DNA of 64,000 nt from NCBI GenBank assembly GCA_034522055.1, contig JAXHLS010000006.1, forward strand, positions 1,026,790-1,090,789, given 5' to 3'. The DNA comes from Gammaproteobacteria bacterium. GTDB taxonomy: Bacteria; Pseudomonadota; Gammaproteobacteria; JAABTG01. Of the stretch, positions 57,905-64,000 are shown one piece after another. Within the stretch, counting starts at the first letter, position 1; each line of letters opens with the position of its first letter. The notes under the pieces were generated by a model. The model was not told where the DNA came from. It did not search any database and saw only the letters and a list, made by a program, of their open reading frames with translations. Made by a program: the position numbers and the translations under genes.

Positions 57905-57940
57905 CACGAACCTTCGTAGGCGATGCTACGAAGGTTCGTG
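57905..57940. promoter_or_regulatory. 15-bp perfect inverted repeat, probable activator site
   Basis: CACGAACCTTCGTAG, loop GCGATG, CTACGAAGGTTCGTG. It lies 44 bases upstream of the regulator gene and about 90 bases upstream of the sigma-54 promoter at 58027, the right range for an enhancer-type site. No T-run follows, arguing against a simple terminator. Confidence 0.6.
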
Positions 57941-58026
57941 GATCACGATATTCCCGACTCTCCACCATTCTTGCTCCTGCAGCCATTTCATTCGTATTTT
58001 CAATGTGTTAGAGAGATCACGCCCAA

Positions 58027-58043
58027 TTGGCACGGATACTGCT
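58027..58043 (+). promoter_or_regulatory. Sigma-54 promoter of the ABC-CobW operon
   Basis: TTGGCACGGATACTGCT matches the sigma-54 consensus with TGGCACG, N4 and CTGCT, and exact GG-N10-GC spacing. The start would fall near 58054, leaving a leader of about 240 bases. The region 57862-58294 holds no supported gene. Confidence 0.75.
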
Positions 58044-58294
58044 CTGGCCTTTGACAAAAGCGGCGCCATGAGGCCGCCGCCGCAATGTCGCTCCAGTCGA
58101 GGCGTTGCACCGCCGGAGTGCGCCGGGCGCCCAGATTGGGGCGCCCACGGCGTCGGCGAGCACCGTAAATGGGGCTACGGCGGCCACCCGCGGTGGTATC
58201 GCAGGATACGTGCCAGAAATGGCGGCCGGCGGTTTCGGACTTCCATCTCAGCAGGCCATCACAGCAGGCCACCACAGCAGGAGAGAGACGACCC

Positions 58295-59782
58295 ATGTCC
58301 TACAAGAGCCTAGGCAACCCCTACGACGAGAACTCCGACCTGACCCACGGGCCGGGCTGCAACTGCCCCATCTGCGTGTTTCAGCGCGAGCAGGCCGAGG
58401 CCCGCTACGAATGCAGTGAGACGGAGCTCACCGAACGCCTGGAGCGGGCGGTGTTCGAGGGCACCATCGCCACCGGCACCCAGGCAGCCATGCCCGCCCC
58501 CGTCCGCGGCGACCAGCTGGAGTCGGCTGATGACGTCATGGACCGCGCCATCGAGAGCGCCATCGTGCGCGGCGTATTCGGCCACGACGACATGAGCCGG
58601 CGCGGCTTCCTCAGCACCGTGGGCGGTGGCACCCTGGCCGCTATCCTCGGCACCATGCTGCCCATGGACAAGGTGAAGGCGGCGGTCAAGGAGAGCATGG
58701 GCAAGCCCGAGAAGACCAAGCTCAAGGTGGGCTTCGTGCCCATCACCTGCGCCACGCCCATCATCATGGCCAAGCCCATGGGCTTCTACGAGAAATACGG
58801 CCTGGACGTGGATGTCATCAAGACCGCCGGCTGGGCGGTGGCCCGGGACAAGTCCCTGAACAAGGAATACGACGCCAGCCACATGCTCACCCCTATGCCG
58901 CTCGCCATCTCCATGGGCGCCGGCTCCACCGCCGAGCCCTTCATCATGCCGGCGGTGGAGAACATCAACGGCCAGGCCATCGTGCTGCACGTCAAGCACA
59001 AGGACAAGCGGGACCCCAAGCAGTGGAAGGGCTTCAAGTTCGGCGTACCCTTCGACTATTCCATGCACAACTTCCTGTTGCGCTACTACGTGGCCGAGCA
59101 TGGCATCGACCCGGACCAGGACATCCAGATCCGCGTGGTGCCGCCGCCGGAGATGGTGGCCAACCTGCGGGCCGGCAACCTGGACGGCTACCTCAGCCCG
59201 GACCCCTTCAACCAACGCGCGGTGTGGGAGAAGGTGGGCTTCATCCACATCCTCACCAAGGACATCTGGGCCGGCCACCCCTGCTGCGCCTTCGCCTGCT
59301 CCAAGGAGTTCGCCACCACCCTGCCGAACACCTACGCGGCCCTGCTGAAGTCCATCGTGGATGCCACGGCCTATTCCTCCAAGCACGAGAATCGCAAGGA
59401 GATCTCCGCCGCCATCGCGCCCAAGAATTTCCTCAACCAGCCGGTGCCGGTCATCGAGCAGGTGCTCACGGGGCGTTACGCCGACGGCCTTGGCAACGTC
59501 AAGAACGACCCCGACCGCATCGACTTCGACCCCTTCCCCTGGCACTCCATGGCGGTGTGGATCCTCACCCAGATGAAACGCTGGGGCTATGTGGAAGGCG
59601 ACATCGACTACCGCAAGATCGCCGAGGAGGTCTATCTGGCGGCGGATGCCGGCAAGATGATGAAGGAGCTGGGTTACCCGGTGCCGGACAAGACTTACGA
59701 GTCGTACACCATCATGGGCAAGACCTTCGATCCCGCCACCCCCGAGGACTACGTGAACAGCTTTGCCATCAAAAGGGGCTGA
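58295..59782 (+). CDS. NrtA/CmpA-type ABC substrate-binding protein
   Basis: The 495-residue protein binds nitrate/bicarbonate/cyanate-type solutes by family: KLKVGFVPITCATPIIMAKP, GFYEKYGLDVDVIKTAGW and WAGHPCCAFACSKEFA. It is unusual in having about 100 residues before a twin-arginine signal (MSRRGFLSTVGGG, Arg102-Arg103). That extension begins with a cysteine cluster GPGCNCPICVF (Cys22, Cys24, Cys27) able to bind a metal. The ATG at 58295 follows AGGAGAGAG; the Tat motif would then be internal, unless translation starts later. A strong terminator separates it from the permease gene. Confidence 0.87.
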   Translation: MSYKSLGNPYDENSDLTHGPGCNCPICVFQREQAEARYECSETELTERLERAVFEGTIATGTQAAMPAPVRGDQLESADDVMDRAIESAIVRGVFGHDDMSRRGFLSTVGGGTLAAILGTMLPMDKVKAAVKESMGKPEKTKLKVGFVPITCATPIIMAKPMGFYEKYGLDVDVIKTAGWAVARDKSLNKEYDASHMLTPMPLAISMGAGSTAEPFIMPAVENINGQAIVLHVKHKDKRDPKQWKGFKFGVPFDYSMHNFLLRYYVAEHGIDPDQDIQIRVVPPPEMVANLRAGNLDGYLSPDPFNQRAVWEKVGFIHILTKDIWAGHPCCAFACSKEFATTLPNTYAALLKSIVDATAYSSKHENRKEISAAIAPKNFLNQPVPVIEQVLTGRYADGLGNVKNDPDRIDFDPFPWHSMAVWILTQMKRWGYVEGDIDYRKIAEEVYLAADAGKMMKELGYPVPDKTYESYTIMGKTFDPATPEDYVNSFAIKRG

Positions 59783-59820
59783 TTCGGCAGCCGGTGCACC
59801 AAACTGGGTCGATGACCCGA

Positions 59821-59850
59821 GGGGGGATTGACGCAATCCCCCCTTTTTTT
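59821..59850 (+). terminator. Rho-independent terminator within operon
   Basis: GGGGGGATTG, loop ACG, CAATCCCCCC then seven T. It lies between the binding-protein and permease genes, so the binding protein is probably made in excess over the membrane parts by partial read-through. Confidence 0.9.
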
Positions 59851-59934
59851 CGCCTGCCCAAAGCCCGGCATGGAAATTGCTCGACTCCCTGTGACGTCTG
59901 AACCAAACGCATTCAAACCCGTCAGGAGCGATTC

Positions 59935-60765
59935 ATGCTGAAGTCCCTCAACCTGCGCGCCGCCCTGCTGTCGGTGGTGCTGCTGGCCATTTTGCTCGGC
60001 ATATGGGAGCTGGCCAACCAGCCGCCCGACGCCGAAAAGGCCCTCACGGAATACGAGCTGCTCATGGGCGGCGCCGATCAGGAGGCCCGGGTGCCACCGC
60101 CATCCGCCGTCATCGAACGGGCCTACGAGGAGTTGTCCAACCCCTTCTACGACAAGGGTCCCAACGACAAGGGGATCGGCATCCAGCTCGGCTATTCCAT
60201 CTACCGGGTGCTAGCGGGTTTCCTGCTGGCGGCCCTCATCGCCATCCCCGTGGGCTTCCTCATCGGCATGTCGCCCATGATGCACAAGGCGCTGAACCCC
60301 TACATCCAGGTGCTGCGCCCCATCTCGCCCCTGGCATGGATGCCCCTGGCCCTGTTCATCATCAAGGACTCGGAGGCCTCGTCCATCTTCGTCATCTTCA
60401 TCTGCTCCATCTGGCCCATGCTCATCAACACCGCCTTCGGCGTGGCTAACGTGCGCCAAGACTGGCTCAACGTCGCGCGCACCCACGAACTCTCGCCCCT
60501 GCGCACCGCCTTCACCGTCATCCTGCCCGCCGCCGCGCCCACCATCCTCACCGGCATGCGCATCTCCATCGGCATCGCCTGGCTGGTCATCGTGGCGGCG
60601 GAGATGCTGGTGGGGGGCACCGGTATCGGCTACTACGTGTGGAACGAGTGGAACAACCTGGACCTCACCAGCGTGATCTTCTCCATCCTCATGATCGGTA
60701 TCGTGGGGATGGTCCTGGACCTCGCCCTGTCCACTGCCACTCGTTTCGTGGAATACGAGGAGTAA
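59935..60765 (+). CDS. ABC transporter permease (NrtB/TauC type)
   Basis: The 276-residue membrane protein has about six helices and the coupling loop with EAA-like sequence (ARTHELSPLRTAFTVILPAA, LTGMRISIGIAWLVIVAAEM). It forms the channel of the importer with the 58295 and 60770 products. CAGGAGCG precedes the start; it ends 4 bases before the ATPase gene. Confidence 0.92.
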   Translation: MLKSLNLRAALLSVVLLAILLGIWELANQPPDAEKALTEYELLMGGADQEARVPPPSAVIERAYEELSNPFYDKGPNDKGIGIQLGYSIYRVLAGFLLAALIAIPVGFLIGMSPMMHKALNPYIQVLRPISPLAWMPLALFIIKDSEASSIFVIFICSIWPMLINTAFGVANVRQDWLNVARTHELSPLRTAFTVILPAAAPTILTGMRISIGIAWLVIVAAEMLVGGTGIGYYVWNEWNNLDLTSVIFSILMIGIVGMVLDLALSTATRFVEYEE

Positions 60766-60769
60766 CCCC

Positions 60770-61723
60770 ATGACCCGTCATCACTTCGTGGAGGTCGAGA
60801 ACCTCAGCAAGCGCTTCGGCAGCGGCGCCAACCAGCTCACCGTCTTCGAGCAGGCCAACTTCGGCATCGAGAAGGGGGAGTACGTCTGCATCATCGGCCA
60901 TTCCGGCTGCGGCAAGTCCACCATCATGAACATCCTGGCCGGCCTCGACTCTGCCACCGACGGCTTCGTCTACATGGAGGGCAAAGAGGTCAAAGGGCCG
61001 GCCCTGGACCGCGGCGTGGTGTTCCAGAACTACTCCCTGATGCCGTGGATGTCCGCCCTGCGCAACATCCAGTTCGCGGTGCGTGCGCGCTGGCCCGGCT
61101 GGTCGTCGGAGCAGATCCGGGCCCACTGCTACAAGTACCTGGAGATGGTGGGGCTCACCGGCGGCACCGAGCTGCGCAAGCCCTCGGAGCTGTCGGGCGG
61201 CATGCGCCAGCGGGTATCCATCGCCCGGGCCTTCGCCATCGAGCCCAAGCTGCTGCTGCTGGACGAACCCTTCGGCGCCCTGGATGCCCTCACCCGGGGC
61301 AACATCCAGGAGGAACTCATCAAGATCTGGAGCGAAACCCACCAGACCGTGTTCATGATCACCCACGACGTGGACGAGGCCATCCTGCTGTCGGACCGTA
61401 TCCTCCTCATGACCAACGGGCCCTACGCCCGCATCGCGGAATCGGTGCAGGTGGACATCGCCCGGCCCCGGGAACGCGCCTCCATCATCCACGACCCCGG
61501 TTACTACCGCATCAGGAACCACTTGGTGGACTTCCTGGTGGCCCGCTCCAAGGGGTTGGCCGGTGGTCCGGATGCCGCCCCCCAGACCACCGCCGATGAA
61601 GAAGGCTACAACCGTCCCTTCCCGCCGCAGGTGAACCCGGCCCGGGACGGCAAGGATGTGGCCCCGCCGCCGGCCGCCGCGCGGCAACGGCAAGACCCCA
61701 GAAAAGAGGAGCGCGTGGCATGA
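60770..61723 (+). CDS. ABC transporter ATPase (NrtD/TauB type)
   Basis: The 317-residue protein has Walker [10 protein letters not shown], signature [15 protein letters not shown] and Walker [16 protein letters not shown]. The last 60 residues form a Pro/Asp/Arg-rich tail not needed for ATPase function. It overlaps the CobW gene by 4 bases (ATGA). Confidence 0.93.
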
Positions 61724-63114
61724 GCACCTGCCTGAACGAGACCTGCGACGAACCGCCGGAGGCCGCCCCCACCGAGGACCTGGACCAGCGGGTGCCGGTC
61801 ACCGTGCTCACCGGCTTCCTGGGATCAGGCAAGACCACCCTCTTGAACCGCATCCTCACGGAGCAGCACGGCAAGCGTATCGCCGTCATCGAGAACGAGT
61901 ACGGCGAGATCGGCATCGACCACGAGCTGGTGGTGAACACCGACGAAGAGGTGTTCGAGATGAACAACGGCTGCATATGCTGCACCGTGCGCGGGGACCT
62001 CATCCGCATTCTCGGGCGCCTCATGCGCCGCAAGCACAGCTTCGACCACATTCTTATCGAGACCACCGGCATGGCCGATCCCGGCCCGGTGGCCCAGACC
62101 TTCTTCATGGACGAGGAGATGAAGGACAAGCTGCGCCTCGACGCCATCGTCACGGTGGCGGACGCCCGCCATCTCGGCGAGCACCTGGGCGACTCGCGGG
62201 AATGCGATGCCCAGATCGCCTTCGGCGACGTGGTGCTGTTGAACAAGGCGGACCTGGTGGATGACGCCACGCTGGAAGGGATCCGCCGCGACATCAGCGC
62301 CCGCAACCCCATGGCCACCATCCACACCACCCGCTACGGCGCCATCGACCTGGACCGGGTGCTCGGGATCCGCGCCTTCGACCTGGCGGCGAAGACCCGG
62401 GACATGCCCGATTTTCTCACCGAGGAGCTGCCCTTCGAATGGGCGGGCACCTTCACCCTGGAGGCCGGCGAGTACATCCTGCGCTTCCAGCCCGGGCCCG
62501 ATCCCACCATCGACATCGTCGTGGGGGCCGTCACGCCGGAACAGCCATTCGAGCACTGGAAGCAGGCCGGGATCCGGCTCTATGCGCATACCCCCGCCGG
62601 CTACGGCCAAGAGCCCCTGGTGCCCGGCGAGGCCCTGCAGCGCCTCGCCATCGCCGAGGCCCGCGAGACCACTTACCGGCTGGCCATCGATGTCCCGGGC
62701 AACTACGTGCTCCTCACCCAACACCTGCCCGAGGAGTTCTCCATGACCCTCGAGGATGCCGGGGGGTCCCTGGCACCCCAGACGGAGCACCGCTACGCCA
62801 GCCCCCACGAGCACGACGACAGCGTGGGCTCGGTGGGCCTGCGCCTGCCCGGCGACCTGGACCCCCAGCGCTTCGAGCGCTGGATCGTCAACCTGCTGCG
62901 CACCAAGGGCCCGGACATCTTCCGTATGAAGGGGATCCTGGCCCTGGCGGGCGATTCCAAGCGCTTCGTGTTCCAGGGCGTACACATGCTCTTCGACGGC
63001 CAGCCGGGCCGGGAATGGGAGCCCGACAGCCGCCGCGAGAACCAGATGATCGTCATCGGCCGCAACCTCGACCGGGCCTTCCTCGAGGCCGGCTTCGCCA
63101 GTTGTCGCGCCTGA
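61720..63114 (+). CDS. CobW/P47K-family GTPase metallochaperone
   Basis: The 464-residue protein has the P-loop [12 protein letters not shown], the metal motif [12 protein letters not shown] (CxCC), [11 protein letters not shown] and the NKAD guanine-binding motif in [10 protein letters not shown], followed by a longer than usual C-terminal half (to residue 464). CobW/P47K proteins deliver zinc or cobalt to enzymes such as nitrile hydratase. Cysteine spacing is intact. Being translationally coupled to an anion importer and to a WD40 gene suggests it matures a metal enzyme encoded further right, outside the window. Confidence 0.9.
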
Positions 63115-64000
63115 TGAACGAACCGGCCCACACCACCGCCATGGCGATCGGCGACACCCCGATGGAACTGGCATGGGCGACGGTGATGGCGGAGAGCATC
63201 GCCGGCCTCGCCTGGTCCGCGGACGGCGCCACCCTCTATGCCGGCAGCGCCGACGGCCAGCTGGTGGGGCTGCAGGGGGACGGCGACTGGCGTTTCCGCT
63301 GCCAGGCCCACGACGAGGGCATCACCCGGGTGTGCGCCCAACCCGGCAGCACCACCCTGGCCACGGCCGGCGAAGACGGCCGCGTCAAGTTATGGCAGGG
63401 CGACACCGGCGACGCCCTGGCCACGCCGGTGGCCGACCGGCAATGGATAGAACACCTGGCCTGGTCCCCCGACGGCACCCTGCTGGCGGCCGCCGCCGGA
63501 CCGCGCCTCCACGTCACCGACCACGACGGCGCCAGCCATACCTGGGAAGGCCATCCGGGCAACATCGGCGCCATCCGCTGGGCCCCCTCGGGCAAGCGCC
63601 TCGCCAGCGGCGCCAACAAGGGCGTCCACCTGTGGAACGTGGGCAGTTGGGAACCCGTCAAGGTGATGGACTTCCCGGGCGCCAGCGTCGCCCTGGCCTG
63701 GAGTGCCGACGGCAAGGCCCTGTCCACCGGCACCCAGGACGGCTTCCTCTATGTGCGTCTCCACGGCCCCGGCACCACCCCGCGCCTGCTCACCATGAGC
63801 GGCTACCCCGGCAAGGTCAGTGCCCTGGCCTGGCAGCCCCATCCCCGCCCCGGCCAACTCCTCGTCGCCAGTTGCGGCGGCAGTGACGTGGTGTTGTGGC
63901 GCCTCGACCCGCGGGACAGCAAACGCGAGGCCAGCCCCCTGCGCCACCACGACCATACCGTCACCGCGCTGGCCTGGTGCGGCGATGGCCGTTTCCTGGG
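63114..64000 (+). CDS. WD40-repeat protein, 3' end outside window
   Basis: An open frame runs from ATG 63114 (TGATG overlap with the CobW stop) to the right edge without a stop, at least 295 residues. It contains at least six propeller blades: GLAWSADGATLYAGSADGQL, LATAGEDGRVKLWQGDTG, HLAWSPDGTLLAAAAG, AIRWAPSGKRLASGANKGVH, ALAWSADGKALSTGTQDGFL and ALAWQPHPRPG. There is no signal peptide, so it is cytoplasmic. A scaffold role with the CobW protein is inferred from translational coupling. Confidence 0.85.
   Translation, partial: MNEPAHTTAMAIGDTPMELAWATVMAESIAGLAWSADGATLYAGSADGQLVGLQGDGDWRFRCQAHDEGITRVCAQPGSTTLATAGEDGRVKLWQGDTGDALATPVADRQWIEHLAWSPDGTLLAAAAGPRLHVTDHDGASHTWEGHPGNIGAIRWAPSGKRLASGANKGVHLWNVGSWEPVKVMDFPGASVALAWSADGKALSTGTQDGFLYVRLHGPGTTPRLLTMSGYPGKVSALAWQPHPRPGQLLVASCGGSDVVLWRLDPRDSKREASPLRHHDHTVTALAWCGDGRFL

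Follow-up and report, generated by a model that had tools for sequence, protein, structure and literature searches.

A conserved three-site array as the putative enhancer of a CynF-like sigma-54 activator upstream of a cyanate-type uptake operon

Does a perfect 15-bp palindrome lying between a divergent activator gene and the sigma-54 promoter of a transporter operon serve as the binding site of that activator? This question was raised by a sequence-only reading of the window, i.e. the whole 64-kb stretch of gammaproteobacterial DNA analyzed here, which had proposed the palindrome as the site of the activator and the operon facing it as the target. The palindrome itself proved to be exact: its 15-bp arms, CACGAACCTTCGTAG (57905-57919) and CTACGAAGGTTCGTG (57926-57940), are 100% complementary, enclose a 6-nt loop and end 86 bp before the promoter. 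No other inverted repeat in the window has 15-bp arms and a loop of 20 nt or less, and none of 13 bp or more was found in 12 first-order (dinucleotide) shuffles of the window. Each arm is also a 12-bp dyad of its own, ACGA-N4-TCGT, the two starts being 22 bp apart. The genome (5.14 Mb) contains a single copy of this two-dyad element, located beside the activator gene. Further single half-matches of the palindrome lie in unrelated contexts; a repeat element was rejected, as no other genomic copies were found and the half-matches are incidental.

Comparison with loci around the orthologous binding protein revealed that these two dyads belong to a larger array, whose consensus comprises three TACGAAATTTCGTA dyads with starts 22 and 17 bp apart. 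This array was found in 56 of 91 loci, in dozens of bacteria from many genera, and in each of them none of 100 shuffles gave an equal match. The spacing was 21-23 and then 17-18 bp in all 56 loci, and site 1 lay 117-124 bp 5' of TGGCAC in 53 of them, typically at about 121 bp. Among the named-genome loci that were scanned upstream of cynA, 50 of 76 carried the array at up to five mismatches; at the same threshold, 867 kb of real flanking DNA, a stronger control than shuffles, gave no match. Within the window genome, no second array was found, matches with three mismatches being at control level, and a wider regulon was rejected given this single array. The third dyad (Table 1) is degenerate in a congeneric genome as well, where it retains 6 of 8 consensus letters.

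The conservation of this array indicates that it is a real, strongly conserved regulatory element, and that the palindrome is best regarded as the promoter-distal two thirds of a putative three-site enhancer rather than as a lone palindrome. Fully paired arms (15 of 15) occur in the window alone among the 56 homologous arrays, three others reaching 14, and the perfection of the palindrome is therefore read as a local accident, in which sites 1 and 2 happen to have mirror-image cores. In the congeneric genome, the long hairpin is broken because the middles of the arms differ while both dyads retain their outer letters. A single 15-bp palindrome as the functional unit was rejected, since the long pairing is not conserved across the arrays. 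Thus, the location proposed for the activator site is supported by conservation and by co-change with the helix-turn-helix (HTH), but not the proposed unit, in place of which stand an IHF-like site and three dyads of 12 bp. The sequence-only reading had missed the third of these dyads, the IHF-like site, the connection with cyanate and an opposed sigma-54 promoter.

Table 1. Coordinates of the regulatory elements and genes in the window.
Feature	Position	Strand	Basis or remark
CynF-like sigma-54 activator, 468 aa	56455..57861	-	Pfam, alignments, orthologues
Putative activator site 1, ACGAACCTTCGT	57906..57917	.	8/8 consensus letters; phylogenetic footprint
Putative activator site 2, ACGAAGGTTCGT	57928..57939	.	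8/8 letters; start = site 1 + 22 bp
Putative activator site 3, ACGATATTCCCG	57945..57956	.	5/8 letters; left half intact, right half decayed; start = site 2 + 17 bp
IHF-like site, TTTCAATGTGTTA	57998..58010	+	One mismatch to WATCARNNNNTTR; 30 bp before TGGCAC
Sigma-54 promoter of the transporter operon, TTGGCACGGATACTGCT	58027..58043	+	-24 TGGCAC, -12 CTGCT; predicted start near 58054
GCAC-N7-GTGC dyad in the leader, TGCACCGCCGGAGTGCG	58106..58122	.	NtrC-site-like or RNA hairpin
Opposed sigma-54 consensus, CTGGCACGTATCCTGCG, candidate cynF promoter	58200..58216	-	Points at the activator gene
CynA-like periplasmic binding protein	58295..59782	+	NMT1_2; Cys-rich N-terminus
CynB-like permease (NtrB-type)	59935..60765	+	TIGR01183 above cut-off
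CynD-like ATPase (NtrCD-type)	60770..61723	+	TIGR01184 above cut-off
CobW/COG0523 GTPase	61720..63114	+	Pfam; overlaps ATPase gene; same place in the cyn operon of relatives
WD40-repeat-like protein, 370 aa	63114..64000	+	Continues past the window end

The consensus sigma-54 promoter that had been read from the sequence was confirmed: TTGGCACGGATACTGCT is the only exact match in the window to YTGGCACG-N4-YTGCW (chance alone would give 0.82 matches when up to one mismatch is allowed), it shows the -24 GG and -12 GC, 12 bp apart and in a consensus context, and it is conserved in orthologous loci. The genome carries a single copy of rpoN. Between the array and this promoter, 37 of the 56 loci show a match to WATCARNNNNTTR, with at most one mismatch, 29-31 bp upstream of TGGCAC, compared with 15 such matches at all remaining offsets and strands together; IHF-like matches in one locus alone are not significant (5 of 100 shuffles for the window). 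The genome contains ihfA, and IHF action at RpoN-dependent promoters is established (PMC7962754).

The protein encoded beside the palindrome is a sigma-54 activator without a receiver domain, as had been proposed. Its Pfam domains comprise a weak N-terminal PAS-like region, an AAA+ domain with a GAYTGA loop, which reads GAFTGA in 45 orthologues, and a Fis-type HTH. The AAA+ domain with a GAFTGA-type loop, the Fis-type HTH, the missing receiver, the divergent orientation to cynABD and the sigma-54 promoter before cynA are all features of the CynF type. In contrast, the two N-terminal PAS domains of the orthologues examined were not found: a second PAS was strong in all four orthologues examined with Pfam, whereas in the window protein just the weak PAS-like region, the first one, is left, and both this second PAS and the coiled coil present in orthologues are missing. 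It is also shorter: the two proteins of the genus have 468 aa and 460 aa, versus 585-690 aa in nearly all orthologues. The activator of the congeneric genome is 80% identical to the window protein. Downstream of the cynF orthologue in that genome lies a perfect hairpin with 24-bp arms (GGTTTTTACTCTGACCCC..., L010:3010-3064), which resembles a dispersed repeat or a terminator.

With regard to the operon, cynS (cyanase, TIGR00673 above cut-off) is the next gene after the ATPase gene in most loci, and the cynF-cynABDS arrangement was assigned for this reason. In the window genome, cynS is located at another chromosomal place, with neither the array nor a sigma-54 promoter, and the congener also keeps one cynS outside the operon. 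Four relatives exhibit the order cynABD-cobW-WD40-cynS, which indicates that the cobW and WD40 genes are regular members of cyn operons rather than foreign to them. CobW proteins with a long middle region, together with a WD40-like protein, were observed in the cyn operons of sulfur-oxidizer-type gammaproteobacteria (window 61720-64000, L046, L047, L051 and L052). A search for a nitrile hydratase or thiocyanate hydrolase link for CobW gave no NHase_alpha matches, and likewise none in the control genomes. At 59820-59851, between the binding-protein and permease genes, AGGGGGGATTG and CAATCCCCCCT can pair into a hairpin that resembles a classic terminator, with a T run after it; it may determine how much binding protein is made relative to the membrane subunits.

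From this comparison, the array and promoter very probably turn on a cyanate-type uptake operon, with cyanate as the presumed substrate or inducer. Regulation by cyanate is less sure in this genus than in its relatives, because the second PAS is lost and the operon lacks cynS. In this lineage, the transporter could instead take up another small anion (nitrate, nitrite or other) under a CynF-derived switch, a reading that we regard as unlikely but which deserves some weight. It would fit the operon's lack of cynS, seen in this genus as well as at three Thiohalocapsa loci, the CobW and WD40 genes that come after cynABD in its stead, the loss of the second PAS of CynF in the genus, and the nitrate-type scores of the ABC subunits. 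Nevertheless, the binding protein is 72-82% identical to those of operons that contain cynS, some relatives carry cynABD-cobW-WD40-cynS in a row, and both members of the genus retain cynS elsewhere, all of which favors a cyanate-type operon.

As to which protein binds the dyads, the association with the activator gene and the letters of the sites both point to the divergent activator. The gene was found within the fetched DNA in 52 of the 56 loci with an array. Among the other four, two (L108 and L127) had too little upstream DNA to include it and the sequence of one (L056) starts 1.6 kb before cynA, while L094, from Cellvibrionaceae, shows a good three-site array and a sigma-54 promoter with no activator homologue in its full fetched flanks; its activator may be encoded elsewhere in the genome. 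The 12 Flavobacteriaceae loci contained cynA but neither the activator nor a strong sigma-54 promoter, and the array was absent from all 10 of these that could be scanned. Across 298 Pseudomonadaceae genomes, the array (spacing 23/17) was present in eight of nine loci with the activator, compared with none of seven without it; one of the eight comes from the genome of L102. An activator-type match with no clear ACGA array was found at 14 loci, six of which have diverged ATGA-type sites, most of the others being distant relatives.

The letters of the sites change together with the HTH of the activator. Half-sites of the ACGC type occur in five loci, and in the alignment a Trp in the HTH (R-W-x-I) is present in all five and in none of the 50 others; on a tree built from the AAA+ domain alone, two origins of the ACGC-type sites are needed. 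Loci of the ATGA type, which are from alphaproteobacteria and some members of Thiomicrorhabdus and likewise have two origins, show different changes in the recognition region. Such events are few, and this co-change is strong but not conclusive evidence. We infer that the divergent activator would bind the dyads, and the prediction that the operon facing it is its target is likewise supported by cross-genus conservation and by the co-change of HTH and sites. It is very improbable that the dyads are the target of another regulator: a nitrogen regulator could act at the cynA promoter, and the leader contains an NtrC-like dyad, but across genera the array occurs together with the activator gene, changes in its letters are matched by changes in the HTH of that protein, and in the window genome it adjoins the activator gene only.

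That the palindrome acts as RNA, through a terminator or attenuator hairpin in the leader of the activator gene, is hardly credible: the minus strand does fold into a perfect 15-bp stem (MFE -48.6 kcal/mol, z -4.1, for a 101-nt stretch) and the opposed sigma-54 promoter would put it in the cynF leader, but such readings fail because the perfect hairpin is found in the window genome only (full pairing in one of 56 arrays, paired N4 cores of sites 1 and 2 in four), the middle of each arm is unpaired in the sister species, terminator prediction makes no call there, and neither strand has a T-run directly after the palindrome. A mere terminator, which the sequence-only reading had named as one outcome that would speak against its proposal, is thus not supported. 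The only Rfam match in the region was a sub-threshold one to narK (E 0.91), and none was found in the leaders of relatives.

The leader of the transporter operon contains two further elements. The -24 and -12 letters of the opposed sigma-54 consensus are conserved in seven divergent loci (L044-L047, L051, L052 and the window), which carry CobW or belong to its clade; all seven aligned loci have an unusually long leader, and the leader motif GCAGGANNCGTGCCA of the alignment is the reverse complement of a sigma-54 promoter. This conservation suggests sigma-54-dependent expression of cynF from the opposed promoter in this lineage. If this promoter is active, the cynF transcript would run over the enhancer, antisense to the cynA leader. 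The second element is the GCAC-N7-GTGC dyad, which we take to fit the NtrC consensus. Its exact core is present in about 20 loci, always in the cynA leader and 74-135 bp after TGGCAC. Its outer pair varies in a compensatory manner (T-A, C-G, A-T, T-G), which suggests that an RNA hairpin would suit it as well. Taken together, these elements might form a nested switch, in which the opposed promoter, possibly with NtrC at the GCAC dyad, drives cynF, and the CynF with its reduced sensor then drives cynABD-cobW-WD40. We put this forward tentatively, as a possible but rather doubtful arrangement; if true, nitrogen status would be hard-wired into the level of CynF in place of cyanate sensing.

For the transporter operon itself, we consider it highly probable that a three-site CynF enhancer, IHF and the sigma-54 promoter together drive cynABD-cobW-WD40. 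Three activator dimers would bind the ACGA-N4-TCGT dyads starting at 57906, 57928 and 57945, and the AAA+ hexamer would form on this array, a step for which NorR provides the analogy. Given that site 3 is half decayed, assembly of the hexamer may rest on two good sites in this genus. IHF, if it occupies its predicted site, would bend the DNA at about 58004, so that the hexamer could reach and open the sigma-54 polymerase. The resulting transcript, starting near 58054, would cover the genes of the cyanate-type ABC transporter, cynABD, followed by cobW and the WD40 gene. Directly visible in the compared sequences are the three-site array in its constant geometry, its association with the gene of the activator, the sigma-54 promoter, the position of the IHF-like match and the co-change with the HTH.

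These observations would provide, for an activator that is widespread, a DNA code and an exact geometry: three TACGAAATTTCGTA-like dyads spaced 22/17, an IHF-like site, and a promoter located some 121 bp from site 1. In the papers searched, activators of the CynF type had been characterized by genetics only. No description of a CynF binding site or site consensus was found in the literature searched, which comprised openly available papers without their supplements, and the three-site enhancer of CynF is apparently undescribed. With the code and geometry, genomes could be searched for cyanate regulons, and the model of assembly on three sites could be tested in a system other than NorR. The naturally occurring change of ACGA into ACGC, accompanied by the Trp in the HTH, offers a ready specificity experiment, and the lineage variant raises the question of which signal is perceived by a CynF without its second PAS domain.

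Among known systems, FhlA, the formate hydrogenlyase activator, is the best NCBIfam model by E-value for the window activator, which scores 365.9 bits versus a cut-off of 830 bits and whose target here is a transporter operon. In NorR-norVW of Escherichia coli, too, a divergent sigma-54 promoter is preceded by three enhancer sites, and these scaffold activator assembly; NorR needs all three to assemble its active oligomer (PMC2941729). Unlike NorR, which senses nitric oxide through a GAF domain, the window protein has no GAF and scores below the family cut-off (356.6 versus 476 bits), and its identity as NorR was rejected on these grounds. The closest likeness is to cynFABDS of Pseudomonas pseudoalcaligenes CECT5344, in which CynF is genetically essential for expression of cynABDS, a putative sigma-54 promoter precedes cynA, cynF has a reported sigma-70 promoter, and the system is induced by cyanate and repressed by ammonium (PMC6627978). 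Both loci share a divergent sigma-54 activator with a Fis-type HTH, a cynABD transporter and a sigma-54 promoter before cynA, and Pseudomonadaceae loci of the cynFABDS arrangement carry the same three-site array as the window. However, cynS ends the operon in CECT5344, whereas in the window genome it is located elsewhere and cobW and the WD40 gene follow cynABD. The window also differs in its CynF, which is about 160-180 aa shorter than its orthologues, and in having an opposed sigma-54 promoter. On the basis of these comparisons, the system appears to be of a known kind, CynF/cynABD, with a lineage variant of its regulator, its operon and its promoter layout.
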